Shown here piece after piece: positions 2,588 to 29,609 of a stretch of 64,000 bases of DNA. The DNA is from Mesodorylaimus sp. YZB2_4. Taxonomy: Eukaryota > Nematoda > Enoplea > Dorylaimida > Dorylaimidae. Below the pieces are notes generated by a model. That model did no database searches, had not been told where the DNA came from, and saw only the letters and a list, made by a program, of their open reading frames with translations. How positions within the stretch are numbered: position 1 is the first letter of the stretch; each line of letters starts with the position of its first letter. The stretch spans positions 62,001 to 126,000 of the forward strand of contig JASANH010001012.1 of NCBI GenBank assembly GCA_030248295.1. The letters are read 5' to 3'. A program made the translations under genes and the position numbers.

Positions 2588-3314
2588 TTACGCACGTTTG
2601 CATCCACCGCCCATGCCCATGCCACCACCCATACCACCTCCCATTCCGCCCATGCATCGCTTGTTCATTCTCTTCTCGGCACTGCGTCCGTTCATGCAGC
2701 GTTGTTGGCGGCTGACCTCGGCGTCGCGTTGGAAGAACATTTGTTGCTTGGCCATCTTGGCGGCACGCTCGGCCAGAGCACGCTTGCCGCAGCAGCAGCA
2801 GCACTTGCAACAACAACAGCAGCAGCAACAGCAGCAACAACAACAACAGCAACAGCAACAGCAGCAGCAGCAACAGCACTTGCAGCAGCAACAGCAGCCA
2901 CGCTTCGTCCGGGCCATGCGCTTGTCCGTGCTCGGCTCGAAGTCGGCGCTGTCGGCGCGTCCCACCAACTGCAGCTCACGCTTGCCACTCATGCATCGCT
3001 TGCTGCGTTCAGCCGATTCGACTTCGCGTTGGATGCGTCCCCAGCCGCCGCCCATACCGCCCATGCCCATGTGATGGTCACCACCACCACCACAGCTGCA
3101 TCGCTTGGCGCGGGACATGTCCTTGGTTTCGACCTCTGAAAAACAGTGCCGTTTAAATCTTTTGACACTTAATGTTACCAGACCCACAGTAACCGTAAGC
3201 ATGATCATGACTATACTTCTTACCCTTAGTTTCATCCTGTTCAGTTGGTCGGCCGAATGCCACAGCAGCCACAGCCAGGCCGAAGAAGACGATGAAGAGC
3301 TTGGTAGAAACCAT
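2588..3314 (-). CDS. secreted poly-cysteine peptide precursor, copy A (212 aa, two exons)
   Basis: Two exons: 3314-3224 and 3135-2588, split by an 88-bp GT-AG phase-1 intron with acceptor TTTTTCAG. Exon 1 gives a 30-residue leader with a hydrophobic signal peptide, probably cleaved just before RPTEQ. Exon 2 is cut by many Lys-Arg sites. Residues 43-77 start Cys-Ser-Cys and contain a Gly/Met/His stretch (DHHMGMGGMGGG). Residues 78-83 are CMSGKR, and 84-103 are an acidic peptide. Residues 110-149 are Gly-Cys5-Lys-Cys24-Lys-Cys5-Gly-Lys-Arg. A basic Gln-rich peptide follows (150-186), then a Gly/Met peptide bounded by Cys (191-209), and KRA. Gly-Lys-Arg after the poly-Cys core is an amidation signal in known peptide precursors. 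Translated length and exon layout equal copy B. Antisense and shifted frames read as poly-Gln, poly-Ala and poly-Leu but lack the signal peptide. Function is unknown. Secretion and processing are inferred. Confidence 0.85.
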
Positions 3315-3403
3315 ATCGCTGCTGAGTGAGTGGGTTCTGAGGAGAGAAGGGCTTATTGATGGAAGATGCAAAAAGGTGATATCACCCTGATTTTGTTTCT
3401 TGC

Positions 3404-3411
3404 CTTATATA
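3404..3411 (-). promoter_or_regulatory. TATA box of poly-Cys copy A
   Basis: TATATAAG on the minus strand, about 90 bp before the ATG. The same box followed by GC lies at the same distance before copy B. Confidence 0.7.
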
Positions 3412-5394
3412 TGAAAAATTTTCATGACGCCTGTCATGTTTTTATGTCAGCTTTTCTTTATGCAAATAGCCTTTTCCCGGCCGTGCACGATTTAATGCTA
3501 TTGAATGTTTGATTTTTCGTTGAGGTATAATTTGAGCTTGCGATGCGCGTGATATTGACTAGAGGTCGTGTGGAAAAGCATATGGCATATTTTCATGGTC
3601 CGATCTTGCAACGAAAGGTGAAGAGAATGTCCATGTTTGTAACGAGATTCCTCGCAAAATAATTAAAAAACTGGACCGTCAAAACGGAACCAACTTCATT
3701 TTATCTTCCGCTTCGAGCTATTAGCACCCGCAATCGATGCCCGATAGAAGCTGAGATTACATCACACAGGGTCACCACCCCTGCCCCTGGCTCAAAAGCC
3801 AGATTTTTAATTAAATATCAGCAAAATTCTCTGATTATCTTGTCTTACGGTGTCTCATTTTTGTTGATGTCCTTAAATTACTCCACATTAAGATTGGCCG
3901 TCATGCTGGCACGAAAGATTGTTAGTTACGCATTTATAAAAAACCCTTTCACTATCAAAGCTGCACTACAGGGAATGTCATAAACGTGGTTAGATATGGA
4001 TTTCGCGACACGACAGTGCTTTTTTACATTCCACTGTTCAGTCTGATCAAAAATGCGCTTATTTGAGTGTCCTCTACTTTTTTAAGACGGTTATGTCGAA
4101 TGTTTTTTAAACATTTTTCTGCGCACTCTGTCGCTCAAGCACTTTTTCAGGCAATTTTGCACCAAAATTGAAAATGGCATTTTCGTGTAGATGCACTCGG
4201 TCTCCGCTCGATATGGCAGCTGTTTAGATGCAACAATCGCAGCAGCCACCATGGATCGAGTCAATGTAGCGTAGCAACTGTTGCAGTGCTTAGGATTGTG
4301 TCTTAGTAAAACTGATGTAGTTTTTTGTTGGGTCAAATTGTGCAGGACAAATGACACTACGTTTTTTCGATAATTGATTTATAGAGCTATGAAGCGTTAG
4401 CTAATCTAAGGACTAGCAGAAGTCAAGATAATCCTTTGTGCTTTTTCCAGAATTTTTATGCGTGGATTGCAGTAGTTCAAGTTTTTTCGCCATTTTCGCT
4501 ATACTCATGGGGAATATTTAGGTAGTATTCAAATTACATGCAGTAAGCGCCTTTTTTGCATTTTCAAATTTGCTCTGCTAGCTGATGCACATAATTTCTG
4601 CGATCGAAAATTCTAGCGTCTAAGATATAGGCGACTTGCACAATAATCTAAAATTTGCTTCGTAGGCTAATACAATTCGATGGTTTCAACGCCGATCATA
4701 AAGTAGGCTCTTCGATGATTCGAACGAAACATCCAAATTATTATCATTATCGCACTCGATATATGATTGTGACAAATATGTTGCTGTTTTAAATATCTTC
4801 CTGATTTGAATTATCGTTTAAGTTGCTTTTTATCAGCTCAACAATAAATGCAAACATTTTATTTAAGATCACGTGATACAGAGTACTGTGATAGGAGTAT
4901 TGTTGTTAGTAGCAGAAACAGAAACTATAACCTGGCCTGAAAGATTACTGTTCAATTATCTCTGGTACATGCATTTTTGCGAAATATTTTTAGGGTGTAA
5001 AAAATTTGGTAGTTCACTTGCTATATGAATTATGGCGATGTCAGAGAAACAGGCTGCTTTATGCTTCATGACTTCTCTAGATAGACCCAACCTGCAGAAT
5101 CAAAATTGATGACCTATCATATAAGCAGTCTTCGAATTAGAATTATGACTTTGATTGTAAATTCCGGTGTCCTCCACGAAAGTCCCTGCCAAGAAGGAGT
5201 GCATCCTTACCTCGTAACGTTACATGTATTCTAGCATTCTCGTGGGCGCTGCTGGTTGTAATCATTGGGTTATCTGCTGGTTTCTTTGGTTTGAGCGGTT
5301 TGAATTAGATCGTAGAGTCTGCGCAGGGGTTGCCTTGTTAAAAGCGTGAACGAGAGTAGGCTTTTAGTTTTGCACTATCAAATTCATTTATTCT
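3412..5394. other. intergenic, no gene recognised
   Basis: AT-rich unique sequence. I find no supported exon, RNA gene or clear repeat. Confidence 0.5.
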
Positions 5395-5450
5395 TTATTC
5401 CTTGATCATACACTTGACAGTGCACTCGAGGACCAAGAAACACGAATTTG
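5395..5450 (-). repeat. truncated tail of tRNA-derived SINE
   Basis: It matches the tail (GCGCACTCGAGG-like core) of the fuller SINE copies at 5895 and 43481, in minus orientation. The tRNA-like head is missing. Confidence 0.6.
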
Positions 5451-5894
5451 AAAACATAGGTCAAATAAACGTCATATTACGCGAAATTATGCCTAAGTTC
5501 TAATTTAAGTGCGAAACCATGACTAAGTTATCATCAAAGCAGGCAGAATTTTTCCTCCCCTTGATTAAATCTAATAGCACTTCTTCTGATCAGTTATTTC
5601 CGCTTCTGTTTTCGCTTAGTTTTGGCATTCGACTTCATTAATCAGAATGCAGCTTTTCGTGCTTTAAAACCAGTAACTATAACTGAAACTGGCTTATTTC
5701 AAAACTGTTTCAAAACTGGATACGAATAGTCTGTAAGGGGGAATAGGTAACTAGTTATGACTACTATGCAAATAAATAAGCTTGCCTTTGACCTACGAGT
5801 GGGCCTCGCACAACATTCTGTGCTTGATATGCAGGAACCCGCTTTTACTGTCTCGTTTGTGTGTTTACTTCGTTGCACTGTTGGTTTGTCGATT

Positions 5895-6070
5895 GGTACT
5901 TTTCCAGGTCATGTCATACTTCATCCGTAGTCAAGCACTATACAGCGCACTCGAGGGCTAAGGAGCACATACTTGACAGTTATTTTTACTTAGGCGAGAG
6001 TCGAACCCCCTCTAAGTGCGCATCCAGCGTGAGAGACAGACGCCTTAACCGCCAGGCAGCGTTTTAAGGC
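5895..6070 (-). repeat. tRNA-derived SINE
   Basis: On the minus strand a tRNA-like head carries an A-box-like word (GCCTGGCGGTTAAGGCG), a segment CTCTCACGCTG, and a B box (GGTTCGACTCTCG). It is followed by a non-tRNA tail containing CCCTCGAGTGCGC and ending in a TGACATGAC repeat. It is clearly homologous to the copy at 43481-43650. Differences in the stems make a functional tRNA unlikely. Confidence 0.8.
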
Positions 6071-7347
6071 GGTCGTCGGTCGTTCGGTGTCAGGCCTGTG
6101 AGTAAACTTGTGGTGCGATGGAGTAATAAACGACTTACAAGACTAGTGGTCTTATAAGTCAATACATGGTCTTTTCTTCAGGGCACAAAGGCATGGACGT
6201 TTATTAACTATTAACATATTAACTATTGGGACCATATTGCGAAAAGACCTAATCCAATGAGCAGCCAACACTATGACAGGTGCTAATAACTATGTTTTAA
6301 TAAGGCACTTCTAAATTAATCCTTGAACTAAGAAAGGGAACTAATCTGTCGTATTATCGACAGAACATGATATTGTGAAAAGGTCGTTTTGTTGAGGATA
6401 TTTGTCCAGGACATTAAAAATGGCAACTTACGTTATATCCACGGACATTTTGTTCAGGACATGTAGTTGTTGATCTAAATTCTGTTCCCCTCGTCTCTGC
6501 AGTATTAACAGCAAAAAAATATAAATTGAAGATCTCTAAAAATTTATTGACGCATCGCATTATATAAGTCTACGCTTGATGGTAATAACGGTCAGTGACC
6601 AGCATGCAGTTGAGCATATGCTGGTTAGCTGCCATTGGAAAACGTATGGCGTGAGGTGATGCGACGTTTTGCGCAAGAGGAACAAGTTTAGCTGGAATGG
6701 TCCGCGGAAAACGTACCTACAGTACTGTTTGGCTTTGCTCATCCTGGTATTGAACCAAATACTTGGCAGCGCCTGAACACGGTTTTCTCATGTCGAAGCA
6801 CTTTATTTTTACGCGAAGAAGGCAGGAACTACTTGTTACCCTCTCGCCACTCATGATCAGATGCTGAAGCGGTACCTGCTACAGCAGTGGCTCGTATCAG
6901 TAGCAGTAGCACTCGGACAGGAGGTCCAGCTTGAGAGCCTATGGTCTCAATATCTATAATCTATGGACAGTCAGTATGTATCTCCCCTTTGTGGCTGGTA
7001 TCTCATAATCATAAATCATCATAATCATATTTTACTAAGTACCCAAGCACGTATGCAATATGGGGGCACGAGACAAGATAAAAATAAAATACAAAAAAAC
7101 ATAAAGTTGAAAGGAACATCAAAAAGTCATCCTAAGAATGTGATTGTGAAAAGAATCGTGAGAAGAAAAAGCACAACTCTCAGGAACGCTATTCCAAAGG
7201 AGATCGCAGAACGAATAAAGCATTGTAGATAAGATTCAAAAAAGTGCCTCGGTACAATCAAATGGTGCTCTTCGCACGCACGACTACTGGCACGTAAGTC
7301 AGTTTTGTGCACAAAACGACGGTTTCCAAAATCATGCAAACCATGAT
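6071..7347. other. intergenic, no gene recognised
   Basis: Short frames only. None has a recognisable domain or splice structure. Confidence 0.45.
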
Positions 7348-7967
7348 AAAACAGGGCCCCGTCATGTCACTTATTTTTACAAAAGAGCGTACTGCACCGA
7401 ACGAATAACTCGGAAAAAAATTTATATTATAGTGAGTGAGTAGGTACGAATACGAGGAGATTGGGACCCTATTTTAAAGAGTGATATTGATCATTTAGAA
7501 AGGGCAAACCAGTATGCGGTTAGAATATTTTTGAATGATCTCACTTCTTCGTACGAAACTGCTTTGGAGAGGGCTGGTTGGTCCTATCTACAGTATACGT
7601 TCGGAGAAAACGAATCAACCTGTGTCAATAAACTGTAAATTATAACAATAAACAATAAACTGGATACTGTAAACTGTGTTAAATAATTGACATAGTTTGA
7701 TTCTTTTTCTCCGAACGTATAGATAGGACCAACCAGCCCTTTCCAAAGCAGTTTCGTACGAAGACGTGAGATCATTCAAAAATATTCTAACCGCATACTG
7801 GTTTGCCCTTTCTAAATGATCAATATCACTCTTCAAAATAGGGTCCCAATCTCCTAGTACTCGTACCTACTCACACACTAATATAATTTTTTCTTTTCTT
7901 TTCCGAGTTATTCGCTATGTGCTGTACGCTCTTTTGTAAAAATAAGTGACAGGACGGGGCCCTGTTT
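7348..7967. pseudogene. foldback of a non-LTR retrotransposon reverse-transcriptase tail
   Basis: Two arms of about 265 bp (7348-7612 and about 7700-7967) are inverted copies around a spacer of about 85 bp. Both arms translate to the end of a LINE-type polymerase ORF. The plus strand of the left arm reads GDWDPILKSDIDHLERA, then a FLNDLTSSYE-type motif and a Leu-Tyr-Val-Arg-Arg-like end. This matches the conserved segment following the palm/thumb in Jockey/CR1-like elements. No catalytic YxDD region is present, so these are dead fragments. Small differences between the arms show that the inversion is not brand new. Confidence 0.7.
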
Positions 7968-8534
7968 AGTTTAAAGTATAAAGCAGATATTTTTGGTTTT
8001 TTACTAGCTGTATGTGCACATAATGTAATACATAGACGTGTGCTCGAAGATAAATCTCACAATATTTTTTTACGGGATATAGAGTATATACATTTTGCTC
8101 CTCATTGTAAATTATTATGACGGTGGTGGGGCCAGGTTCGACAAAACCAGGATCCAAACCAGAGTAGGTTGCTATTTTTATCGAACAAGGACTGAACATG
8201 AATCAAAATAAACCACAGTTTTCTTGCCGCTAGCAAGGCTAGACCAGACGTTTGCGCAAAGCTTAACAACTTATTCGATTGTAATGTACATAGATCGAGA
8301 TACACCCAAGATAATTCCTTGTTTATAAATCTCCTTTGACCAGAAGCTTTTTTAACTAAGAGCTTTTCTAATTTTGCACTGCCAGTCGGTTGAAACGACA
8401 CAAGGCACGCGGACGCGGGTTGGTCCTGGTTCGGTCCTTTTTTAGAATTTTTATGGTTTGGGCCCCGCGCGCCACATTTTCCCGCGTGACTTTCAACCCG
8501 ATTTGCCTAGTAATAGCTCTCCAGCAGTCATGAC
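7968..8534. other. intergenic, no gene recognised
   Basis: Open frames exist on the minus strand but show no conserved motif that I can name. Confidence 0.4.
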
Positions 8535-8960
8535 ATGATAGGCCGTGAGGTGACCAGCTCCCATGGCAGCTTCCCTCTGTGTGTCTCCTCTAGGAACCCC
8601 TCCCGACAAGGGCATCCTGTGCCAACACCAGCGTCCCATGATGATACTGGGCGAGAAGGGAGGGACCTTTCCGACTGGTGTTCGAGGACCAGTTTCCTGA
8701 TTCTATTCTATTTCGCCACTGGCGGTACTCGGTGAGTCGCCCAGAGCCAGGCACGTGAAGTGTGTGCAAGGTCACTTACTAGATCGCTGTCGAAGTTTCC
8801 TCTCTCACGATCAGAACGGGCATACAAAACTGCCATCCTCAGCCAGAACAGAAGAGCGGCCTCCTGGTCATGGTGGCTGGCCAAAGCAATGCAGGACCAA
8901 CGCCTAACCAACTGAGCCACCGAGGCTTTTCCTGGTGCGGTCTTAGCTCGGTTCGGCCGG
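8535..8960 (-). repeat. dispersed SINE-like repeat, copy 1
   Basis: On the minus strand it begins with GCCTCGGTGGCTCAGTTGG, resembling a tRNA A-box region. It shares long blocks with 56415-57400: TGGCTCTGGGCGA, AAACTGGTCCTCGAACACCAG-like, GTCACCTCACGGCCT and CATGACTGCT. The two copies define an element of at least 430 bp. No coding capacity is evident. Confidence 0.7.
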
Positions 8961-9235
8961 CCCGGTGTTCGGTCGAGGCTGCGATAAGAGCACAATAAGA
9001 TAGAATAAAAATGATTTCCAAAAAAGCTGCTTTGGATTAATACTAAAAGCTGATAGTAGTTAAAAAGTCTATGAATTCTAAAAATTAGGCCATATACGGA
9101 GAAGGTTTTTTTTAAAATTCTCTCTTTCTCTTAATTAAAACTTTTTCGATGAGTATTAGAGGATGAGTAGGAACATCATTTCCCAGTGCTGCCTTAGCAG
9201 GCCATTCGTAAAGGTGACCATAAAGAGATATCCTC

Positions 9236-10285
9236 ATGTATAATATAACGAGTTGCGGCTTTTCTGACACAACTATTTCTGTAATCAGTAATTTTTATTT
9301 TATCAGTTTTTCTATTATCCTACCAGTTTACATAAGTTTCGGTCTGTTGTTTAATTGCCTACTTTTTGTGGCATTCGTCAAACAAACTAAAAGCGAAGGA
9401 AATTATGCTTATCAACTGATTGTGATCGGCAGTAGAACATTTCAAAATATTACCTTCGGGGTTTACTTGGTAAGTGCATACTGGTTATCGGGTATGTATG
9501 AAGAACAAGCTGATTGGTTTATGAAAAATTATTGTCTCATGTTTTTTGGTGTTAAAATGTGTTTATTCCTTTACTTTTTCTCTCTTTATAACTCATTGTT
9601 TGTCTCGATTGCAGCAGTAGCTGATCGTGTATTCGCATTATGGAAACCATTTATATATAAAAATATAAACCACAGTTTCCATAGGAAATTAGCAATATTA
9701 TTCAGCACAGTTATATCTTTCGGTTTATGTTTAGATTATTGTTTTTATTATGAAATAAATACTCAAACGAGTTGGTATACTGTAGGTACAAACAGAAATT
9801 ATATAAGTGGCATAACATCTAAAATTCTTAAAGATATTCGAACACCAGTTCGATTGACATCAGTTGTATCCCTGATTATATTAAATGTGGTTATGGTATT
9901 TGGGTATAACCGCCGTGTGAAAAACTTGCTGAAAATGTCATCGCTTACTAATAACGATGGTCGCGCTGATGCCAAGAAAGAAGCTAATAGAGAATTGCTT
10001 TTTTTAACCATTTGTCAATGCTGTTTAACTTGTTTCGATCAAATTCCCAATTCCATCATGGATGTATTGGCTCATCTGTCAGAATTTTGGTCTCGATGTG
10101 GTTTAGTGCTGGCACCAATTTCGAATGGATCGATAATGATATCGGACACTTTGGAATGTCTGGTCGTCGTGATGGTGAACAAAAAAATGAGGAAAAAAGT
10201 TATAGGATTATTATGTTGTGGAAATTTGTGTTATAGAGGTGAGAATGCCGCCAGTAGTCGGGTAGCTCCATTGCCAAACAGATAA
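9236..10285 (+). CDS. intronless rhodopsin-like G-protein-coupled receptor (349 aa)
   Basis: A single open exon encodes a seven-pass receptor. Hydrophobic segments lie at about residues 22-48, 59-83, 98-129, 151-171, 195-223, 252-275 and 282-312. The end of TM3 reads AVADRVFALW, a DRY variant (DRV at 130-132). TM6 contains LLFLTICQCC with a downstream Pro. TM7 lacks a canonical NPxxY and instead reads SNGSIMISDTLE. The N-terminus has an Asn-Ile-Thr glycosylation site at residue 3, and the cytoplasmic tail has paired cysteines (about 337-338) that could be palmitoylated. The length is normal for the class. The ligand is unknown; peptide receptors of the FMRFamide-receptor-like group are a reasonable guess. 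The coding sequence is more AT-rich than the papilin or poly-Cys exons. No adjacent gene suggests co-regulation. Confidence 0.8.
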   Translation: MYNITSCGFSDTTISVISNFYFISFSIILPVYISFGLLFNCLLFVAFVKQTKSEGNYAYQLIVIGSRTFQNITFGVYLVSAYWLSGMYEEQADWFMKNYCLMFFGVKMCLFLYFFSLYNSLFVSIAAVADRVFALWKPFIYKNINHSFHRKLAILFSTVISFGLCLDYCFYYEINTQTSWYTVGTNRNYISGITSKILKDIRTPVRLTSVVSLIILNVVMVFGYNRRVKNLLKMSSLTNNDGRADAKKEANRELLFLTICQCCLTCFDQIPNSIMDVLAHLSEFWSRCGLVLAPISNGSIMISDTLECLVVVMVNKKMRKKVIGLLCCGNLCYRGENAASSRVAPLPNR

Positions 10286-10870
10286 ATTTTGGTTGACAAG
10301 AGATGTATCCTCTTGGGGCAAAAAATTCAAATGTAGTGCTTTTTGAGTATTTATACTTTTTTCAGAGATTATATGGACAATTTGCATGAGCCCGTGTTTT
10401 TGAGTTAGTGGAATTGGCTTGGTATACAGTGTGCGAACCTTTAGCTTTTATGTGCATCTATTGTGTGGTGGCTATGTATCACTTTGTACGTTGACTTGTG
10501 ACCACTGTGAATCTTATCGTTGTGATGATGAGTTTAATTGTAGACTGACTAGAAAATGCCAGTTCGAAAAATTTTATCTCACCTTGCAGATTGTTATTCG
10601 TGAGTATCGTCTCTCATGTGCTAAACCAAATATGTGACCACCATTATATTTGTATTTTCTGGCTGCCCTAGTCCATCGAGCAATGTGTGCGGCATGAAGG
10701 CGTGTCTCTTTCGACAGCAAGACGAAGATTTTTGTCTCTCGCGACTCATTTTTCATCTGAAGAACCATGATTAAGCCAAAAATAAAATTGTCCCTACACA
10801 TATGAAAAATTTGTGTCCCGGACACGTTTGATGCCTCATACATGGAAATGCAGACAGCGCTACCCTTCCC
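10286..10870. other. intergenic, no gene recognised
   Basis: Downstream of the receptor. No exon or repeat that I can support. Confidence 0.45.
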
Positions 10871-10983
10871 CAAATACAGTAACCTTACGATGTGATGTTC
10901 AGGCACTTTTTAGCGTGATTTGTTTCTTGATCAACTGTGTCAAATCGCATCGCCGCATATTTTAGGCCTGTCGTCAGCGATCT
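10871..10983 (+). repeat. dispersed direct repeat, unit 1
   Basis: It begins CAAATACAGTAACCTTACGA and is about 90% identical to 11557-11667. The core AGGCACTTTTTAGCGTGATT is the same in both. Confidence 0.85.
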
Positions 10984-11556
10984 CAATGAAGGGCTTGTCG
11001 GTCTTGCCGGGGTGGGGGCGGCCCTTACGCTACAGGCACAGACAAGCACTCACTACTGATGAGCCCACAGTCCATAAGCCTTATAGGTTTCTCGATGGGT
11101 CATTTTATGCATTGCTCGCGACCTGACCGTAATGAGCAGTTGCGTCAAACGGGGCTTATTTTCCGTGCAGTATTATATCTTTCGAAACTTCTAGAAAAAT
11201 AAGATTCATAAGGTGCTTATATGATTAACCGAGCCGCGCGTGAGAGGAATGCCTTGAAGGTCTTAGAAAACTAGGCCTACGACTTAGAAAAAAGTCTCGA
11301 ACGTGAGCCTAGTTCGGTGCGCAGTGATGGGTAGGAATACCTGCACGCGTACGTGGTATCACCCCTGCGCAGTCCCGATCGAAACGGACACCAATAAGGA
11401 TAACCCTTTACTGGGCCAACGGGCGGACACCTCTAGTAGACGGAGAGGCCTGAAGGGCACCTACGTGACTGGTCCTAGAACCAGTTAGGATTAGGTCCAA
11501 GCTCGCTCTACCTCAAGAGAGGTCGAGCGCAGGAAGCATATTTGTTACAGACTTGT

Positions 11557-12650: not shown

Positions 12651-12694
12651 TGCGCCCATAGGAACTCTCCTACGCGAACACTATTCCACCCGCC

Positions 12695-17022: not shown

Positions 17023-17762
17023 TTATGCACGTTTGCATCCACCACCCATGCCTCCGTGTCCTCCCATATCACCACCACCGCAGCGCTTGTTCATTCTCTT
17101 CTCGGCACTGCGTCCGTTCATGCAGCGTTGTTGGCGGCTGACCTCGGCGTCGCGTTGGAAGAACATTTGTTGCTTGGCGATCTTGGCGGCACGCTCGGCT
17201 AGAGCACGCTTGCCGCAGCAGCAGCAGCACTTGCAACAACAGCAGCAGCAGCAACAGCAGCAACAACAACAACAACAACAGCAACAGCAGCAGCAGCAAC
17301 AGCACTTGCAGCAGCAGCAGCAGCCACGCTTGGTCCGGGCCATGCGCTTGTCCGTGCTCGGCTCGAAGTCGGCGCTGTCGGCGCGTCCGACCAACTGCAG
17401 CTCACGCTTGCCCCAGCCGCCGCCGCCGCCGCCGCATCGCTTGTTCATGTGGATGGATTCGACTTCGCGTTGGATGCGTCCCCAGCCACCCATGTCACCA
17501 CCACCACCGCCGCAGCTGCAACGCTTGGCGCGATCAACATCCCTCGTTCCGACATTGACTGCCAACGGGATTTCATTCACTTCACCTACACAGCAGAAAA
17601 ATCAAGATTTCGCAAGCTACGGCGATTACTTTCCATTTTACCTTCATTTTGGGGCTGGAGAGGGAATTGGAGTACTTGTTGTTCTAGCTCAGAGGGACGA
17701 GCCAAGGCAGCCGAAACAACAGCCAAGCAGACGAATGCAATCAGAGCTTTGACTGAGGCCAT
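17023..17762 (-). CDS. secreted poly-cysteine peptide precursor, copy D (227 aa, two exons)
   Basis: Exons 17762-17642 and 17585-17023, with a 56-bp phase-1 intron ending TGTGTAG. The leader (starting MASVKALIAFVCLAVV) is a clear signal peptide, followed by RPSELEQQ and a longer propeptide than in copy A. Exon 2 has the family order, but the first peptides belong to the Gly/Trp subtype. The Cys-Ser-Cys peptide lacks His-His and reads GGDMGGWG, and the next is Cys-Gly6-Trp-Gly-Lys-Arg, a candidate Trp-amide. The core is Gly-Cys5-Lys-Cys24-Lys-Cys5-Gly-Lys-Arg. The last peptide is CGGGDMGGHGGMGGGC, then KRA. Like copy C it has AKIAK where the other subtype has AKMAK. It is divergently paired with copy B, with 647 bp between start codons. 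Function is unknown. Confidence 0.85.
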
Positions 17763-17848: not shown

Positions 17849-17857
17849 CTTTTTATA
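17849..17857 (-). promoter_or_regulatory. TATA box of poly-Cys copy D
   Basis: TATAAAAAG on the minus strand, about 90 bp before the ATG. The word is the same as in copy C. Confidence 0.7.
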
Positions 17858-18307: not shown

Positions 18308-18315
18308 TATATAAG
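18308..18315 (+). promoter_or_regulatory. TATA box of poly-Cys copy B
   Basis: TATATAAGGC, 95 bp before the ATG. Confidence 0.7.
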
Positions 18316-18409: not shown

Positions 18410-19104
18410 ATGGCTTCAACCAAGATTTTAATTGCTTTTTTCTGCTTGGCTATGGTCGCTGCAGCATACGGCCGTCCAACGGAACAAGAAGAAACCAAGG
18501 GTAAAATTTTCATGTTTTGCGAAGTGCAGGTTATTTACTGTCTATTTTCTTCTCAGAGGTCGAAACCAAGGACATGTCCCGCGCCAAGCGATGCAGCTGT
18601 GGTGGTGGTGATGACCATCACATGGGCATGGGCGGTATGGGCGGCGGCTGGGGACGCATCCAACGCGAAGTCGAATCGGCCGAACGCAGCAAGCGATGCA
18701 TGAGTGGCAAGCGTGAGCTGCAGCTGGTGGGACGCGCCGACAGCGCCGACTTTGAGCCGAGCACGGACAAGCGCATGGCCCGGACGAAGCGTGGCTGCTG
18801 CTGCTGCTGCAAGTGCTGTTGCTGCTGCTGCTGTTGCTGTTGCTGTTGTTGTTGTTGCTGCTGTTGCTGCTGCTGCTGTTGTTGCAAGTGCTGCTGCTGC
18901 TGCGGCAAGCGTGCTCTGGCCGAGCGTGCCGCCAAGATGGCCAAGCAACAAATGTTCTTCCAACGCGACGCCGAGGTCAGCCGCCAACAACGCTGCATGA
19001 ACGGACGTAGTGCCGAGAAGAGAATGAACAAGCGATGCATGGGCGGAATGGGAGGTGGTATGGGTGGAGGCATGGGCATGGGCGGTGGATGCAAACGTGC
19101 CTAG
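18410..19104 (+). CDS. secreted poly-cysteine peptide precursor, copy B (212 aa, two exons)
   Basis: Exons 18410-18500 and 18557-19104, joined by a 56-bp phase-1 intron (donor GGTAAAAT, acceptor TTCTCAG). The signal peptide is followed by GRPTEQEETK. Exon 2 encodes the His/Met subtype: Cys-Ser-Cys, then DDHHMGMGGMGGG, CMSGKR, an acidic 20-mer ending in DKR, MARTKR, the Gly-Cys5-Lys-Cys24-Lys-Cys5-Gly-Lys-Arg core, a basic Gln/Met peptide, and a Cys-bounded Gly/Met peptide. Length and exon sizes equal copy A (91 and 548 nt coding). The cysteine codons are a mixture of TGC and TGT whose order differs from the other copies. This is the clearest family member for a gene model, because TATA box, start, splice sites and stop all lie close together. 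Confidence 0.87.
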
Positions 19105-20450: not shown

Positions 20451-20459
20451 TATAAAAAG
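20451..20459 (+). promoter_or_regulatory. TATA box of poly-Cys copy C
   Basis: TATAAAAAG, 96 bp before the ATG at 20547. Confidence 0.7.
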
Positions 20460-20546
20460 GGCGGCTGGGGAGGAAAGAGCATCATAGCATTTGTGAGCAA
20501 AGCTGCAGTCAGCCACTCCGCTTCGGCACCAGCCCGCCTTAAGAAA

Positions 20547-20996
20547 ATGTTTTTGAAAAATACTTTGGTCGCTTTATTCTGCCTTGCAGTCGCTACCGTC
20601 GTTGTTGCTCGACCAGCGGAGCAAGAAGGAATTGCTCAAAATGGTGAGGATTGTTTTGAATTTGACGGTCTCCAAAGCTATGTAACTTGTCTTACAGGAG
20701 AAGCCGTCGTCTCAGTTGAAACCAAGGATGTCGAACGTGCTAAGCGTTGCAGCTGTGGTGGTGGTGGTGGTGGTGACATGGGTGGCTGGGGACGCATCCA
20801 ACGCGAAGTCGAATCCATCCACATGAACAAGCGATGCGGCGGCGGCGGCGGCTGGGGCAAGCGTGAGCTGCAGTTGGTGGGACGCGCCGACAGCGCCGAC
20901 TTTGAGCCGAGCACGGACAAGCGCATGGCCCGGACGAAGCGTGGCTGCTGCTGCTGCTGCAAGTGCTGTTGCTGCTGCTGCTGCTGCTGCTGTTGT

Positions 20997-21028
<32 letters not shown>

Positions 21029-21245
21029 TTGTTGCAAGTGCTGCTGCTGCTGCGGCAAGCGTGCTCTGGCCGAGCGTGCCGCCAAGATCGCCAAGCAACA
21101 AATGTTCTTCCAACGCGACGCCGAGGTCAGCCGCCAACAACGCTGCATGAACGGACGCAGTGCCGAGAAGAGAATGAACAAGCGCTGTGGCGGTGGTGAT
21201 ATGGGAGGACACGGGGGTATGGGTGGTGGATGCAAACGCGCTTAA
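20547..21245 (+). CDS. secreted poly-cysteine peptide precursor, copy C (214 aa, two exons)
   Basis: By homology with the other copies, exons are 20547-20643 and 20698-21245. The 54-bp intron (donor GTGAGG, acceptor CTTACAG) is phase 1 and happens to keep an open frame, so an unspliced 232-residue product is also possible. The longer frame starting at 20394 is rejected because the TATA box at 20451 lies inside it. The signal peptide begins MFLKNTLVALFCLAVA and ends before RPAEQ. Exon 2 is of the Gly/Trp subtype, with Cys-Gly5-Trp-Gly-Lys-Arg and a C-terminal CGGGDMGGHGGMGGGC peptide. The core is again Gly-Cys5-Lys-Cys24-Lys-Cys5-Gly-Lys-Arg. A candidate polyadenylation signal AATAAA lies at 21494. 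Confidence 0.85.
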
Positions 21246-21730
21246 TAGGCAGGAGTGTATGTGATCACTTCACGCCTGGGTCATTCTTGCAAAGGCGGCA
21301 TGGTGCTGTGGTAATGTTCAATCTCTTCGAGTTGAGCATGCCAATCAGATATTTAAATTTCCTCGGTTTTATATGTTGGTTCTGGGATAGCTGGATACTT
21401 TATTTGTTTCTTGTGCGTTGAAAGCACATGGGATGGCCATGCAGGCTTCGAGGCTGGAACATATTATAACTTCGTGACCTGATTGAGCGACTGAATAAAG
21501 TTTTTCTGATTGCTTTTTACAACGTCTTTTCAAAAACTTGAGCTCATAATTAAAAACATAATAGCTCCCACTGCTGAATTGCAGAGTTGCGGCGATTGTG
21601 TATTTGCAGCCGTTTGATTCGCGCCTCATTTCACCTGTGTGGATTTCTCTGGCAGATGGTATAACATCTTGCTCACATTGATGCATATTTGTGGAATAAT
21701 ACATCCGTTAGCTATCCTGGAAGTACTGTT
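21246..21730. other. 3' flank of poly-Cys copy C
   Basis: It contains AATAAA at 21494-21499, a plausible polyadenylation signal for copy C. Nothing else supported. Confidence 0.4.
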
Positions 21731-23120
21731 GATATGGATATCCATGTCCATATCTATATCTAATCGATATCGATATCTTTTGACATATCGACACCGAGAT
21801 CATATTTATATCCATATCTACATATGTATGTATATCTATATTATATCTTTTTACGTTTAAGATATCGACAAAAAGATATGAATATTTAAGGGTTTTAGAG
21901 GTCTGAAAGTGGTTGTTTCCTGCAAAAAGAACCTGGGAAAGGTGCTAAGCGGCCATCCGTACAGGACATCAAGACCCCTAGCAGGTGGGTGCCACACGAC
22001 TGGACTGACTCCCTTTAGCTTGTCTAACGATAAGTTCCTATCAAAGCAGAGACAAAAAAATTTTTTAAATAAGCAGTAATGAATTGATGCTATTAAAACT
22101 GTGGAAATTTGCCTGGAAGATGAAACCAGAGCATGTTCAGTTAAAAAACTTCTAAACAAGGTACAAGAGAAAATAAACGATTGTTTCTGAGCTTCTGTAT
22201 TAGTCAGTTATTATGTACCAGCAGCAACCTCAACCCTCCATAATCCAAGCCACATTTACTGCTTCGTACATACAGCACTTCCCACGACTAGGACGACCAT
22301 GTCGTTTTTATGTACTGTAAGGGTAGGATGGAAATTTACTTGAAACGATGTCCTACAACTCGGAGGTCTTCTAATTGAGAAAGAGCCTCCTGCACACAAG
22401 CTACCTCGTTTTATAAAATTGTTGTTGATCTCCGCATGCAAGCTATGTATCTTACCTCTGGTCACCTTTGGGGCAGAGGTCAGCCTATATTTTTCGCTTA
22501 AAATACCAAAAGGCACTCCTTTATCGTGTTTAACTCCGTAGCTGTTTTCTCTTTCTATTCACTTATTCTAATCTGATTCTACAACCACAAGTTCTACTGT
22601 TCTTCATATATTTTCAGGAACTGCTTTAATCTTGTTTCAAACGCGCCCCTCCTCCGCCGGGCCATGACTTTCATGTTACAATTGGTCATTACGGTTTTTT
22701 CTACACCCTTACTTTTTTAATCGGAAGCTGATTAGGTCATCTGGATGCTTTTTGTATTTTCGTACAACATGAATGCTTACCTGTTGCTTGATTAAGGCGC
22801 TTTTGATTGTCAAATTGGTGCCAGCATCAGCTGTATGCAGGCATTGTGCTAACTATAAGATTCCCACTTCACATTTTGTATCTTGCAGTGCTCTGCGTAC
22901 AGTAACTCACGATCAGCCTTGATTTTGAGTTGGCTCCTTTCTGTAGATTTCTGGGGGAGTCACCTGCTGTTACCAGCCCAGGCCAGAGTCATATTATCTC
23001 ATATCGATATCTAAAATCGATATTTATCGATATAATTTCGAAGATATAGATCTGGATATCGGTATCCATATTCATATTTAATTGCCATAAGGATATCGAA
23101 ATCATATCCATATCCATATC
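21731..23120. mobile_element. element with GATATC/GGATAT-array ends
   Basis: The left end (21731-21880) and right end (22990-23120) are dense in GATATGG, GATATC and CGATAT words. The outermost words read GATATGGATATCCAT on the left and, on the minus strand, GATATGGATATGGATAT on the right. Minus-strand frames inside (about 21857-22516) have no motif that I recognise. I infer a DNA transposon remnant of about 1.4 kb. Edges and target duplication are unresolved. Confidence 0.5.
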
Positions 23121-25721
23121 TTTTCGCGGCAAGCCTATCTACTTTGGTGAACGACTGTTTGAATCACTTTTTGTACACTTGCAGCAGATAATTTCTGCAA
23201 TCTGGGCTTTGAGATATACAGTATTCTGATTCGCTACTGGAGCTGCACCCTTAATGCAGCAAACGAGCGCGTATTATGATCAATGGCGCTAATTAATGCG
23301 AAAAAAATACCCAATAGTCTGTGCCAGCAGAGGAAGCTCGCAGATGAATGTAATTAAACATCGGTGCGCGACGGGCGTGGGCGACAAATTTTGCCATCTC
23401 CCTATGCCCAGCAGGGGCTCCTTAAGAGTTCAAGGACTTCGAGCTCGAGGCTCGCATAGAATCGTATTAGCAGCATCGAAGCTACTTTATCCTTTTTTCT
23501 TCCCTGTAATAAATAATAACTGAATAAAAACCAGAAAATTTGTTCAATTTTTATTCCTTTTTTTTGAGATTTAACTCTCCTTCTATTGCATTCCCCCAGG
23601 CCAAAGCCTACCGAAGTCTGTAGCATATACGCGCGTGTAAGATGTTGCTGCATCATTATTGTCCACGCATCCCAACCCCTCCTACGTCCCTACATACCTA
23701 GCATGAGTGATGTATGTTATACTCCATTGCGATTTCTATTTAGGTCTCCAAGCTGCATTGACTGAGATTGATATACCTGCTGCTGCCCATGTTTCCCGGG
23801 AGACATGGTTAAAATGCGCATGAGATTAGAGTTGCCTTTCAAAATCGATCACAGCCTTTGCTTGTGACCCATGAAATGGTGCGCTAGGCGTCTGCCCGTT
23901 GCGAGGGCGTCTAGGTGCGTAATACCATAATTTCTAAGGCAGGTTCAGCTCCTACGCTCGTTCTCGTTATTCCGGGTCCAAAGGCCGAACCTCCGTTAGT
24001 TCCTAGCGATAGCTGATATCACGCATCACCCGATGAGGCTCGAAAGTAAAAGAGAGATGCTAACCAGGTATTGGACCAATTCGATGCACATTCGCGATCA
24101 TTCCAGATGGCTTGGCTCTTTATAATCGTGGATCATCAGGCTTTATCAATCATTGTTGGCCTGGAAAATGATAACAATTAAAACCTGGAAAAATATACAC
24201 CGCTACTAGCCCACTCTAAATCGCTAGAGAATCTAGACTTTTTCGACTATGTGCCCGCAAATCTAAATCCTCGCGAAATTTTTAGCAGTCGATTTGCATG
24301 CATTCTTGACGGTATCAGAGAATTAAAATGTTTAATAAAACGCATACTGTCTTTCAAAAAAATTAGGTCTTTGCTATGGGTTATATATGCAATACATAAC
24401 CTACTCAACTTGTATCTCACTTGTGCCCCAGGTATCAGACCCCATTGAAATATTACACCCCTTCACTTATATCTCTCACGGATTAAAGTTTTCTGCAACA
24501 TGAGTAACTATTGCACGCCATGAAATAAATTTGAAGCAGACACTTTGGACTTTGGAATGGAGGCCTACCGTGGGCACAGATATTTTCGTAGGCGAAAATA
24601 CACACCTGGCTGTTATGCTATAAGCCGCCCATAATTACCCCGCTGCCCCACTCCCTCGGGTCGGACCCCTTTGAAATCCTGAATTTCCAGGGATAACGAG
24701 GATTCACGGCAGGTCTCATTTTGCACAGTTCTCATTTTACTGCGTTGCTCCCGCTTCCTTCTCTGATTGTTCAACCCACTCATTCCCCGACATTATTATA
24801 ATAATTGAAACGATTGATCTCTTGGGGCACGAAGCAGAAAATATTGCATGTAAAAGTCATCCATCATCCTTATAACAATGATATTTGGACTTAGATTTCA
24901 TCTAGCAAACGGACTCCATTGAAAATGAGAGCAATATAGAAGCTCTGCGCATATTTATCTTTGATTGAAATTCAAATTTCACCCCTATATTTTTATTAGA
25001 CACAGCCTTTTTGATCATTTCTAGCTGAAACGCTGCCGTAGTAGGTCGATCCAGAAGATGAAGAAAATGATGAAAAGACACAGTCTTCTGGCCGTCGTGC
25101 TCCTCATTATATCCTCAGTATTTCCCGGAACTATGGCTTTTGAACCATTATTGTCGAGAAATACAGCTTTGTAAATTTTTTTTTCTAAAAATACTTGATC
25201 ACGCGATATGATCTGCTGTACTGTGGTGTGCTGACTTTTTGTGCTTTTCAGAAATGATCGATTTCGAACCAGCCATACAATCAGGCCCAGAGAGATGAAA
25301 CCAATCTTCAGCATAAAGAGTGCAGGAAGTGGAAAGATAATTGACAAATTAAGGGAGTCTGGATATCAAAGCAGAACCTTCAACAACTGCCACTTCTCGG
25401 TTGTCCAATGCGCGAGGATCCGTCGCCTAAAGAAACACAAAACAGGCGTCCCTGAAGAAAGATGATATCATGGCAGCAACTGGAACATGATGCTATGAAT
25501 AATTGCGCTGGTAACAATTCGTGGAGATTGAGGGGATGCCCTGATGACACAGCTGTGAATGGATACATGCGGGCTACATATTTCGCGCTCAACGGGCAGG
25601 GGATCCTGTAACTGAATCGATCTCAGCCATTCCGTGAGGGGAAGGCACAACAAATAGGACAAATAGGCTATCTTGGAAGGAAAGCACAAAGAGCCACATA
25701 CTTTTCGAGTTGTCGCACAGT
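23121..25721. other. intergenic, no gene recognised
   Basis: Unique-looking sequence. Frames near 25021-25347 (minus) have hydrophobic ends but no supported gene structure. Confidence 0.45.
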
Positions 25722-26768
25722 AGTGTTAGAAATGACCTCAAGGTCAAGGTCAGAATTTTGTCAAAACCCTGATTGACCGACCCTTGGTCAAAGTCAGGGT
25801 CAAAGTCAAAAAATTTTTTGGGGTCTGGTCAAGGTCAGTGTCAAAGTCAAAAAATTTTTTGGCGTCTGGTCAAGGTCAGGGTCAGGTCAGAAAGTTTTTT
25901 TAGGGGTCGGTCAGGGTCAGGGTCAGGTCAGAATTTCTTACACCCGGTCAGAGTATTCTGACAGCGAAAGAAAGTAAATTTAGTGAAATATTGGTGAAAA
26001 CATTTCAAGCTCCTGCCTTCCCGAGTAGGGATCTGGGGTGCAGTTTTACAGTTCTATCCCAAGGCATGTCCTAAATTCTGGGACAGTCCTAAGTCATTTC
26101 ACAATCAGCTTGGTATCCCACCCAAAGACACCAGGCAGTCATACAGTAAGTTTAGGGCGACCTCGACCCATGTCCTAAGACACTCCCTGGTGTCTTTACA
26201 GTATTTCCCATGCAATGTCTCTTGATCTATGGCAATTTTGAGCTGATCTTTCTGGAGCAACTTTTTGGGCGTCTTGATATTGTGGCATTTTGCGTTAGCT
26301 CTCTCGAGCCGTAAAACTGGTTCTTTTTCAGCTGAACTAAAATTCTGTCGTCCCTTTTTAACCATTGAGGCCAAAAAGAAACGACAGAATGCAATTATCT
26401 ACTTTTCCCAAAGCCGTGAAAACAGCTTTGCATATCTTTTTGAGCTTGATAAAAGTTCAGTTTCTTGGACTGCCCGTGAAATTTCACGTAATGCCAGAAA
26501 ATTGTCAGCTGTAGTGAAATTTCTTGGTAAAATTGCAAACACAGAGAAGCTTTGTTGCTGGTGCCGGTTGGTGGTGTTTGCAAAATTTTTTGTCCGATTA
26601 ATGTCAAGGTCCGAGCCAGAAAATTTACAATTCCTCGAAAGTTCACGGTCAGGTCAGAAAGTTTTTTTCGGTTCTGTCAAGGTCAAGGTCAGGTCAGAAA
26701 ATTTTTAGAAGGGTCGGTCAAGGTCAGGGTCAGGTCAGACAGTGAAAAACCCAGGTCACTGGAACACT
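25722..26768. mobile_element. element with GGTCA-array ends and Myb-like ORF
   Basis: The left end starts AGTGTTAGAAATGACCT and the right end, on the minus strand, AGTGTTCCAGTGACCT. Both continue into GGTCAAGGTCAGGGTCA arrays interrupted by AAAATTTTTT (25733-25960 and 26590-26750). Inside, 26040-26110 resembles the terminal region of the Harbinger remnant at 55660-55745 (GTCCTAAGTCATTTCACAAT in both). Either a Harbinger copy is nested in the GGTCA element, or the arrays belong to it. Confidence 0.55.
26105..26374 (-). pseudogene. Myb/SANT-like transposon protein fragment
   Basis: 89 residues beginning near KKGRQNFSSAEKE, which matches the start of Myb/SANT domains encoded by Harbinger transposons (the usual opening resembles NFS-x-x-E-K). 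The later ERANAKC and a Lys-rich stretch fit the second half. The C-terminal tryptophan region is altered and the frame ends early. No catalytic domain is adjacent, so it is probably decayed. Confidence 0.45.
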
Positions 26769-27875
26769 ATCACATAGCGGACACAGGCTTTTTGGCTGGG
26801 CTGGTCGAATCAAGTTGTGAACACGCTGGTCTGCTTCACTCCGTTATCAGTCTTGCTCGGTTTCCAGTAGAGTTAGCGGAGTAGAGTTGTAGTCTAGCCT
26901 TCTTTCTGTTGTCCCTGCGCCTTGGCTGGACAGACAATCAGGAAACAGGAAAGTGATGAAAAACGTGACCACCGAGTGGGAATCGAACCGTGAGCCAGGA
27001 CAGAAATGCTGTACACATACATAAAGTATGATATGGCAGAGCAAAGTAACATAGAAATTCCATGAATGGAATTCCTAGGGCATCGGAAACAGGGTTTCTT
27101 GCGGGGAACCTTAAATAGCTCCAAAGTCGTTACAACCTTGCAGTAGCATGTACTGAAGTTGCTACCACGCCAATTAAGTTTCAGCATGTGCGAACTCTTT
27201 TTCGATCATGCAATTCGAAAAGCTACAGAAGCTATTTCAGATGGGCTTTCTGTTAGGGTCGACCCAGGGGTTGCCAAGCTGCAATTTTTGACCCCGTTTT
27301 TTATATGAATTAGATGCACCCATTAGTTGTCATAGTGACGCAACAATGCTTTTTTGTGCACACTCGGTTTTAGGATTATCTTAAAAGTTTCTCTGAAAGT
27401 GCTTCAGCGATATTGGCCATAACTCACTAATTTTTGGGTCTTTCCTCATCAAAGACACATCAGCGCTTCGCAAATGGACGAGAAAACAAATGCTTATCAC
27501 GCAAAGTTTCTATCTTTCACCTGTCTCGAGACATTAAGCGCCAAAGTCAGGGTGCCCTCCAAACTGACGACTTTTAGACCTCCTGATCCTTTACGCTAAC
27601 TGGGAGACGGGATTTAACCAATCTTATGTATGCCTGATTCATCTAGCTTTCAGCATGACCCCCCCCCCCCATCGTCTATACTTTAGCTTTTTATTAGATA
27701 TAATATATGCGAAAAACTGCACCCACCCAACTTTAGGGAATTTTCAGAAAAATCCATTTTTGAAAATCGATCAAAGCAAATCGTAAAGTCGCACATTTAT
27801 TTTCGGAAAGAGAATGAAAAATTGCATCGATTGTTTTTTTCGGTTAAAATTCTACATATATAGTTGTGAAAATAG
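26769..27875. other. intergenic with isolated tRNA B-box-like word
   Basis: A minus-strand GGTTCGATTCCCACTCGG word at about 26970-26990 resembles a tRNA B box, without an A box at the right distance. Otherwise nothing supported. A C homopolymer lies near 27661. Confidence 0.4.
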
Positions 27876-28158
27876 AGTGCCGGAAGTAAGCACCTTTCGA
27901 ACTTCCCGCTCCGCGCGCTGCTTATGACAAGAGTGCGGTTTCAGCTGCTTCCTATGGATATCGCGAGATTATATATAATTTTTCACTTTTTCACCATATA
28001 TCGATCTAATTTTCTACTAGAGTATCTGTCTTTTGTGAAAAAGTTGGAAGTCGTATCGTAAATTTACCTATTATTTCCAGAGAAAGCAGCCTAACCCGCA
28101 CTCTTGTCATAAGCAGTGCGCGGGGTGGGAAATTTAAGCGGCGCGTACTTCTAGCACT
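27876..28158. mobile_element. 283-bp MITE with imperfect TIRs of about 80 bp
   Basis: The left arm contains GCTTATGACAAGAGTGCGG, and the same word appears on the minus strand in the right arm. The outermost bases are AGTGCCGGAAGTA and, on the other end, AGTGCTAGAAGTA. No coding capacity, and no obvious target duplication. Confidence 0.7.
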
Positions 28159-28821
28159 CGGTGATCGCTACTTTCTTCCTGTTGAAAAAACTGTTGTTTG
28201 GTGCGTCATCCAGCTTGTATATTTTGACTCAGCAGATTTCAGGAACAAAGGTGAGGATTTGCCAGCAGCAAGTAGGATGTGGCCTATGCATGTTAGTACG
28301 CTCGATTTGGGCTTATGTGAGGTGAGGCAGATTAAAATCAGATAAGCGATACGGGAATGCTGTGCAGACGCTACGTCAAGCCTGGTGTCCATAAAGTTTA
28401 ATTAAAAGCTTCAAATTTTTACAGGGCGCTCTTTGTAAAGCGCACCTGACACACATTTCTCTGTGCCCTAGTGTGACTTCTAAAAAACGCGATTGAACGA
28501 GGAATATGTGCGAGCGGTGAGGCTTGAAAAATCATTGCAATCATTCATCCTCACAGTTGCGACTCTATTAAAAGTACACTAAGGTCAAAACACTGTCGAA
28601 TCAAAACACGTCGCACTTATCCGAGTGCTGTAGTAAGTAGAGCCGGTGCACCCGAGTTCGCCTGTATATTCTGAATCAACTTATATGAGCAGTATTGAGA
28701 GGAAATATCAATCAGAAGCCAGAATCTAACGAGTTCTATGTGTTCATCTTGCTTTATTCTTCACCCATAATTTCTATCATCTACAGTAACAACAGCACCA
28801 CTACCGTTTTGCCAAAACAGG
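28159..28821. other. 3' flank of poly-Cys copy E
   Basis: No gene or repeat that I can support. Confidence 0.4.
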
Positions 28822-29609
28822 CTACGCACGTTTGCATCCACCGCCCATGCCCATGCCACCACCCATACCACCACCCATACCACCTCCCATTCCGCCCATG
28901 CACCGCTTGTTCATTCTCTTCTCGGCACTGCGTCCGTTCATGCAGCGTTGTTGGCGGCTGACCTCGGCGTCGCGTTGGAAGAACATTTGTTGCTTGGCCA
29001 TCTTTGCGGCACGCTCGGCCAGAGCACGCTTGCCGCAGCAGCAGCAGCACTTGCAACAACAACAGCAGCAGCAACAGCAGCAGCAACAACAACAGCAACA
29101 GCAGCAGCAGCAGCAGCAACAGCACTTGCAGCAGCAGCAGCAGCCACGCTTCGTCCGGGCCATGCGCTTGTCCGTGCTCGGCTCGAAGTCGGCGCTGTCG
29201 GCGCGTCCAACCAGCTGCAGCTCACGCTTGCCACTCATGCATCGCTTGTTGCGTTCGGCCGATTCCACTTCGCGTTGGATGCGTCCCCAGCCGCCGCCCA
29301 TACCGCCCATGCCCATGTGATGGTCATCACCACCACCACCACCACAGCTGCATCGCTTGGCGCGGGATACGTCCTTGGTTTGGATCGCGAGTGAGGCTTG
29401 TTCGAGAGCTGTAAATGTAAGAGGAAAGTGATTTGATGTGCTGTAAGAGGAAAGGTCATTTGCTCTGTCACCATGAGCTTACCATCATTTTGAGGAAGGG
29501 GAATTTGAAGGGCAGCATCCTGAATGATGTCATCGGTTTCTGCTGGCCGAGCTAGTGCCAATGGGGCCACAATGGCCAAGCACAAGAAACTGATCAAGCC
29601 TCTGTTCAT
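28822..29609 (-). CDS. secreted poly-cysteine peptide precursor, copy E (237 aa, two exons)
   Basis: Exons 29609-29483 and 29408-28822, with a 74-bp phase-1 intron (donor GGTAAGC, acceptor ATTTACAG). The signal peptide starts MNRGLISFLCLAIVAPLALA and is followed by RPAETDD and a Leu/Gln/Pro-rich propeptide like that of copy D. Exon 2 is of the His/Met subtype like A and B, with CMSGKR and a C-terminal peptide one Gly/Met repeat longer. The core is Gly-Cys5-Lys-Cys24-Lys-Cys5-Gly-Lys-Arg. Thus its leader resembles D and its processed region resembles A/B, a mosaic relationship. The start is the only Met ahead of the signal peptide. Confidence 0.85.

Follow-up and report, generated by a model that had tools for sequence, protein, structure and literature searches.

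Predicted secreted precursors with a nearly pure cysteine core form a multigene family in the nematode Mesodorylaimus sp. YZB2_4

A stretch of 64,000 nucleotides from the dorylaimid nematode Mesodorylaimus sp. YZB2_4 (assembly GCA_030248295.1, contig JASANH010001012.1), hereafter called the window, carries five genes whose predicted products are secreted precursors with an internal peptide composed almost entirely of cysteine. The window corresponds to C247:62001-126000 in the contig numbering used below, and the whole assembly (145 Mb, 1067 contigs) contains at least 28 loci of this poly-Cys family, at least 24 of them with a poly-Cys core. That these loci encode real, selected and secreted Cys-dense precursors can be stated with high confidence. 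To our knowledge, no natural peptide made almost wholly of cysteine has been described.

Each of the five window genes begins with an exon that supplies the ATG and a hydrophobic signal sequence, continues through a phase-1 GT-AG intron of 54-88 nucleotides into a second exon of 548-587 nucleotides, and is preceded by a TATAWA box located 81-102 nucleotides 5′ of the ATG (Table 1). The leader reads, for example, MVSTKLFIVFFGLAVAAVAFG followed by RPTEQ, with the probable cleavage point between the two. In all five genes exon 2 contains exactly C5-K-C24-K-C5, i.e., 36 residues of which 34 are Cys, and KR sites elsewhere. The window contains 15 runs of at least five TGY codons and all of them lie inside the five tracts, while the longest run in 20 shuffled windows was four. 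The intron of gene 4 happens to lack an in-frame stop and is therefore open in frame. When the ATG-to-stop coordinates were recomputed from the sequence, the architecture proposed in the initial annotation (TATA box, signal-peptide exon, one phase-1 intron and a KR-containing exon 2 with C5-K-C24-K-C5) was recovered in five of five genes with its coordinates unchanged, and the proposed span of 2588-29609 proved exact, since its ends are the outer ATG and stop positions of genes 1 and 5.

The description of a family of five genes turned out to be too small. When the assembly was searched in six frames with gene 1 exon 2 as the query, 22 matches were obtained that represent 21 loci (one locus was split over two rows); five of these lie in the window and 16 on contigs other than C247. 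The copy at C49:426682 carries an internal TGA and was excluded, leaving 20 modelled loci of the same layout; two of the models, L016+ and L018-, are incomplete at the end of their stretch, and the full exon 2 of these is given by L017 and L019. Seven remoter relatives emerged when the divergent members on C118 and C9, and afterwards a relative on C2, served as queries: three on C46, one on C164 and three on C2. Three of the seven have a poly-Cys core and four have another Cys-dense core, that is (CCDCCK)n, (CG)n or CCS/CCH-rich. All these counts are lower bounds. On C109 (L026, 231500-237000) and on C174 (L023, 80000-85500) there is a divergent pair of poly-Cys genes on opposite strands, near-identical within each pair; the two tracts of the C174 pair differ in length, with 26 and 41 Cys.

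Secretion is predicted from the gene models. A signal-peptide exon was modelled for all 20 intact loci with phase 1 imposed, and when any phase was allowed, a phase-1 model was recovered in 18 of 18 loci tested, against an expectation of 0.025 of 18 in shuffled upstream DNA. Phase 1 was the only phase in 17 of them; other-phase models appeared in one locus only, C9. Signal peptides were called by a hydrophobicity score with a shuffle control (18 loci) and not by SignalP, and the any-phase search, as well as the TATA scan, covered 18 of the 20 modelled genes (the second copies L016+ and L018- were left out). Some models have alternative splice sites or starts, with two candidates each for L001, L011, L012, L014 and L021, four for L015 and five each for L013 and L022. 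In the C164 relative the signal peptide and the Cys tract lie in a single uninterrupted open reading frame (ORF; L058:1415-2266), which is apparently intronless, so that the link between signal and tract is there independent of predicted splicing. A TATAWA box was located 60-130 nucleotides 5′ of the ATG in 18 of 19 upstream regions (18 modelled genes and the C164 relative), compared with a mean of 1.3 and a maximum of 8 of 19 regions in mononucleotide shuffles; the lone exception is the GC-rich C9 gene. The signal-exon models of the C2 relatives are weak: for L059 a single ATG gives two alternatives and the donor is doubtful, L065 has one with a 411-nucleotide intron, and none was found for L066. 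Those of the C46 relatives have two possible ATGs and several acceptors. The prepropeptide features comprise, besides the signal peptide, repeated dibasic sites and a Gly before a basic pair, G-[KR]-R following the tract in 20 of 20 models. The earlier reading of these genes as secreted, dibasic-processed poly-Cys precursors is thus well supported by sequence.

The tract alone cannot choose its reading frame, because a TGY run is synonymous as sense Cys, as sense Leu and as antisense Gln. The blocks that flank it were therefore compared codon by codon among 17 distinct paralogs (two truncated duplicate rows and the broken copy L009 were left out). Single-base codon differences were synonymous in the Cys frame in 92% of cases in the pre-tract block and 79% in the post-tract block, with no stops; in the antisense poly-Gln frame the values were 77 and 70%, with 3 and 21 stops, and in the remaining four frames 1-13%. 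The median dS (synonymous divergence) was 0.82 and the median dN/dS (nonsynonymous to synonymous divergence) was 0.067, and dN/dS stayed below 0.3 in every one of the 135 usable pairs (136 in total). As estimated from these substitutions, the exon-2 flanks show strong purifying selection. In the post-tract block the Cys frame outscores the antisense frame by a modest margin, and much of the argument is therefore carried by the stops in that block, by the signal exons and by the Cys-dense cores that replace poly-Cys in the relatives. Taken together, the codon evolution of the flanks, the stops and the dN/dS make it very probable that the Cys-dense peptide is a translated, selected product. An antisense poly-Gln gene, which had been raised earlier as a point to be checked, was rejected, given the stops in its frame and the greater share of synonymous change explained by the Cys frame. 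A structured RNA was likewise rejected, since the tracts folded no better than dinucleotide shuffles (z of +0.51, +1.95 and +0.74).

The poly-Cys core holds 22 to 41 Cys in almost unbroken series. Among the 20 models, C5KC24KC5 was found in seven; six have other arrangements with at least two Lys (C5KC26KC5, C6KC25KC5, C5KC22KC5, C5KC17KC5KC5, C5KC18KC5 and C6KC11KC5), two have C5KC27, and five have pure Cys (C26, C36 in three, and C41). In the C46 relatives the tract is C4KC32KC4 in two and C4KC31KC4 in one. Between the corresponding KR sites of the C164 relative lie 14 CCDCCK units closed by CCDCC, with 60 of the 90 residues being Cys. In the C2 relatives this place is taken by tracts that are either rich in CCS/CCH (64-66% Cys) or of the (CG)n type (57-58% Cys). 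The C164 tract uses GAC at 15 of 15 Asp, TGC and TGT in a ratio of 54 to 6, and AAG and AAA in a ratio of 12 to 2; a recent expansion of its CCDCCK array is suggested. Cys density is thus kept across the family and Cys spacing is not, and as far as paralogs and relatives can be compared, density has survived point mutations, changes in tract length and even the substitution of different Cys-dense repeats for poly-Cys.

The peptides around the tract are less uniform. The motif R-x-K-R lies immediately 5′ of the tract in 19 of 20 models, the exception being C9 with RVWKR, and the C46 relatives have LTKR before the tract and GRKRRR after it. Short Gly/Met/His peptides that begin with Cys, some of which also end with it, flank the core. 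In 14 of the 20 models a peptide starts with Cys after KR and terminates in Trp-Gly-Lys/Arg, an end that could yield a Trp-amide. Ahead of the tract, the three C46 relatives (L056, L057) contain as many as four CGGGGGGCHRAARDAEYSRNAR units that are nearly identical, and four C-Gly-rich-Trp-GKR units that differ from one another, a layout that resembles a multi-copy peptide precursor.

The core of the window genes is more alike than the rest of them. Exon 2 is 87-98% identical, exon 1 is 56-76% identical, and the introns and the 300-nucleotide stretches up- and downstream are 40-61% identical; the near-identity ends at the stop codon, although between gene 4 and the C157 gene L006 some similarity (68%) continues into the 3′ flank. 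The proportion of synonymous differences reaches 0.56-0.87 in exon 1, compared with 0-2 of 24-25 synonymous sites in the post-tract block. Between L001 and L013 the ends of exon 2 differ at 10 of 23 and 7 of 15 synonymous sites, while in the core the differences amount to 2 of 20 sites before the tract, 3 of 12 within it and 1 of 25 after it. Gene conversion centred on the Cys core of the window genes is the likely cause of this pattern, with selection on synonymous sites as the alternative.

Searches of several collections returned no relative. In a protein database nothing was found at E ≤ 0.001 with the C-terminal region (1 candidate), with the nine-row alignment A1 (8000 candidates scored) or with a C46 relative (8000 candidates scored), an absence that is weak evidence for lineage restriction because the nematode content of the database had no positive control. 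A known domain was rejected: for five family proteins (one core protein and four relatives) Pfam gave no family above its cut-off, with sub-threshold hits to GRP (17.8 of 30 bits) and YxzE (16.7 of 40 bits), and a sequence profile search of PDB gave two chains at E 0.88 and none better. Phage origin was rejected as no match was found in phages, and viral origin because 600 stretches of viral contigs fit the pattern, none of them encoding a relative. Among the matches listed in the literature searches there was neither a natural near-pure Cys peptide nor any of four family-specific sequence stretches; those listed include Ts-PCHTP of Trichinella, polycysteine made synthetically and, in one paper, products of the non-canonical translation of CAG repeats. 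The predicted poly-Cys peptide is a kind of natural peptide without a relative in the collections searched.

What could such a peptide be for? The favoured explanation, to which about an even chance is given, is that its main role is disulfide cross-linking of secreted extracellular material, one of the three roles suggested in the initial annotation beside metal binding and signalling. The signal peptide is predicted to send the precursor into the secretory pathway, where proprotein convertases would cut the KR sites and the R-x-K-R furin-type site just 5′ of the tract. This would release a Gly(-Cys)n peptide of 22-41 Cys, whose Gly-Lys-Arg end could be amidated, and short Gly/Met/His/Trp peptides with terminal Cys would be freed alongside it. 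The poly-Cys peptide might then act as a multi-thiol linker, joining the Cys-capped Gly-rich peptides and other secreted proteins through thiol/disulfide exchange, and the product might be an insoluble extracellular material such as an eggshell layer, a hardening of the cuticle or feeding apparatus, a plug or a cement. Three of these steps, namely the secretion signal, the convertase sites and the selected Cys density, are supported by the predicted gene products. A fixed spacing of Cys marks a folded disulfide peptide. Since it is Cys density and not a fold that appears to be conserved, a cross-linker fits the family and a disulfide-knot toxin or hormone does not. Synthetic poly-L-cysteine of 6-11 residues was reported to cross-link lysozyme under urea or at 60°C (PMC5613652), and in C. 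elegans secretion of two cuticle collagens was reported to require the furin-type convertase BLI-4 and the cleavage sites of these collagens (PMC10538796).

Several points weigh against a cross-linking role. Synthetic poly-Cys is described as poorly water-soluble (PMC5613652), so that the handling of such a peptide by a cell would need an explanation. An abundance of dibasic sites together with potential C-terminal amides would be expected of bioactive peptides sooner than of structural proteins, and the Gly-Trp-GKR/GR peptides of 14 of the 20 models recall epidermal antimicrobial or NLP peptides. Moreover, the furin-type site is not universal, as seen in C9 and in the three C46 relatives.

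A possible precedent is offered by insect eggshell. The late high-cysteine chorion proteins HcA and HcB contain Cys-Gly repeats, to which the (CG)n tracts of two C2 relatives may be likened. In silkmoths they serve to cross-link the chorion, with gene conversion as the probable means by which their genes are homogenised (PMC4639761), and the poly-Cys family resembles them, as far as they are described there, in being secreted, multicopy, Cys-dense and apparently homogenised in the core. It differs in that the Cys peptide is bracketed by dibasic sites and is nearly pure Cys in most loci; no relationship in sequence to the chorion proteins was detected, nor was their conserved central domain, as the one core protein and four relatives had no Pfam chorion match. 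The broader proposition, that animals can make on the ribosome a genetically encoded homopolymeric polycysteine which is released by a furin, amidated, built of up to 41 near-consecutive Cys and used as a covalent multi-thiol cross-linker, in a family that conserves thiol density over sequence or fold and whose cores are kept uniform by gene conversion, is put forward tentatively and at slightly less than an even chance. If the tract is translated, it may be asked how the oxidising secretory pathway copes with 34 adjoining thiols, whether these end up in a disulfide polymer or in a metal cluster, and by what means selection could act on nothing but the thiol density of a gene family. Materials research would then also have a ready-made cross-linker of biological origin.

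Among other explanations, secreted defence or signalling peptides come first, though they are considered unlikely. According to this proposal the family is a counterpart of the C. elegans epidermal NLP/CNC peptides, in which Gly-rich Trp-amide peptides are accompanied by a Cys-dense membrane-active or microbe-binding peptide. The NLP/CNC peptides (nlp-29 cluster) are reported to be secreted, Gly-/Tyr-rich, encoded in small genomic clusters and infection-induced (PMC2453101), and the poly-Cys family resembles them in its Gly-rich secreted peptides, its clustered duplicates and its ends resembling Gly-Trp-amide, with predicted peptides of the C...GGW-G-[KR] type in 14 of 20 models and four in a C46 relative; its dibasic processing also speaks for this proposal. 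However, the comparison, made by description and through Pfam, also shows that no Tyr-rich repeats are seen in the models, that no Pfam family was scored above cut-off in the five proteins scanned, and that a Cys polymer is not among the features described for NLP/CNC in the cited account (PMC2453101). Trp-amide peptides were not found in six of the 20 models while the Cys tract is present in all 20, and the family is strongly constrained (median dN/dS of 0.067) whereas the nlp-29 cluster is reported to evolve adaptively (PMC2453101).

Less probable still are secreted metal-binding peptides for zinc, copper or cadmium, i.e., a thiolate polymer like metallothionein or phytochelatin, aided by the Gly/Met/His peptides; as far as it holds, this proposal too weighs against cross-linking. 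Extreme thiol density, the CCDCCK repeat and CCH/CCS variants, and the His and Met of adjoining peptides speak for it. However, the secretory pathway is oxidising, the His/Met peptides are variable and have in part disappeared while Cys is retained, and no Pfam metallothionein match was found in the five proteins scanned. Metallothioneins are cytosolic and have spaced CxC motifs; the poly-Cys family shares the very high thiol density of metallothioneins and phytochelatins, but, unlike metallothioneins, it has a signal peptide, convertase sites and up to 41 adjacent Cys. Metal binding is also favoured by Ts-PCHTP of Trichinella, a Cys-rich secretory protein that was reported to bind iron, nickel and zinc (PMC2954182). 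Ts-PCHTP, the nearest named nematode protein, is described as the product of six exons, the first of which encodes a signal peptide, and as having a pair of homologous Cys domains with CxCCC[HPY] together with a His tail (PMC2954182). The signal peptide in exon 1 is present in 20 of 20 poly-Cys models, but two defining features of Ts-PCHTP are absent from the predicted proteins: on inspection, CxCCC[HPY], as described there, does not occur, as the tract in the 20 models consists of C and K only and is followed by G[KR]R, nor is there the C-terminal run of seven His, the complete models ending in ...CKRA, ...CKRN, ...CKRG, ...CH or similar. The near-homopolymer tract and the two-exon structure differ from Ts-PCHTP as well.

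It is improbable that the product is aimed at another organism, as a host-, prey- or mate-directed gland secretion: a multi-copy secreted family with TATA promoters and no relative in the collections searched would suit such a role, but very strong purifying selection and homogenisation, not diversification, were found. Weakest of all, and very improbable, is the proposal that no poly-Cys product is made and that the tract is a CAR/TGY trinucleotide repeat driven by slippage, under selection as RNA or in a different frame or strand (poly-Gln, poly-Leu). In its favour, the TGY tract cannot itself choose a frame, its length differs between paralogs, and 70-77% of the flank differences are synonymous in the antisense Gln frame too. 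Against it, the flank codons and stops favour the Cys frame, the relatives swap poly-Cys for CCDCCK or CG repeats in the same KR-bracketed place with Cys density kept, and the RNA folds no better than shuffles.

Table 1. Poly-Cys genes of the window with their tracts and TATA boxes (window coordinates), and the further loci in the assembly
Feature	Position	Strand	Details
Poly-Cys gene 1 (L001)	2588..3314	-	exon 1 3224-3314, intron 3136-3223, exon 2 2588-3135; 212 aa
Gene 1 C5-K-C24-K-C5 tract	2789..2896	-	
Gene 1 TATA box	3406..3411	-	
Poly-Cys gene 2 (L013)	17023..17762	-	exon 1 17642-17762, intron 17586-17641, exon 2 17023-17585; 227 aa
Gene 2 C5-K-C24-K-C5 tract	17215..17322	-	
Gene 2 TATA box	17852..17857	-	
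Poly-Cys gene 3 (L002)	18410..19104	+	exon 1 18410-18500, intron 18501-18556, exon 2 18557-19104; 212 aa
Gene 3 C5-K-C24-K-C5 tract	18796..18903	+	
Gene 3 TATA box	18308..18313	+	
Poly-Cys gene 4 (L012)	20547..21245	+	exon 1 20547-20643, intron 20644-20697, exon 2 20698-21245; 214 aa
Gene 4 C5-K-C24-K-C5 tract	20946..21053	+	
Gene 4 TATA box	20451..20456	+	
Poly-Cys gene 5 (L004)	28822..29609	-	exon 1 29483-29609, intron 29409-29482, exon 2 28822-29408; 237 aa
Gene 5 C5-K-C24-K-C5 tract	29035..29142	-	
Gene 5 TATA box	29685..29692	-	two overlapping TATAWA matches
16 loci outside the window			C9, C40, C41 (two), C49 (two), C53, C58, C59, C109 (two), C118, C157, C174 (two), C196

Some features of the assembly bear on the lineage of the animal. 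Genes of the TTR-52/transthyretin-like family, which we take to be nematode-biased, gave 27 matches in the assembly and none in 14 control genomes, which indicates a nematode. No match to the canonical spliced leader 1 (SL1), exact or within two mismatches, was found in the assembly, and the Rfam SL1 model gave no match, with no control sequence scored either. This absence would fit a lineage outside Chromadorea without proving it. The SL1 of the dorylaimian Trichinella was, according to a 2006 paper, merely inferred from the polymerase chain reaction (PMC1657053).

Other features of the window lie between and beyond the poly-Cys genes. Between genes 1 and 2, at 9224-10285 (+), there is a single-exon ORF for 353 hydrophobic amino acids, probably a multi-pass membrane protein, with no Pfam match at E ≤ 0.01. 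Papilin-like exons occupy 40306-50925 (+), with TSP1/ADAMTS repeats followed by three separate Kunitz domains. Finally, 52985-55329 and 57981-60342 form an inverted repeat, 99-100% identical and of about 2.35 kb per arm, and each arm carries a U6 small nuclear RNA gene and an identical multi-pass ORF of 336 amino acids, which by eye resembles a G-protein-coupled receptor.

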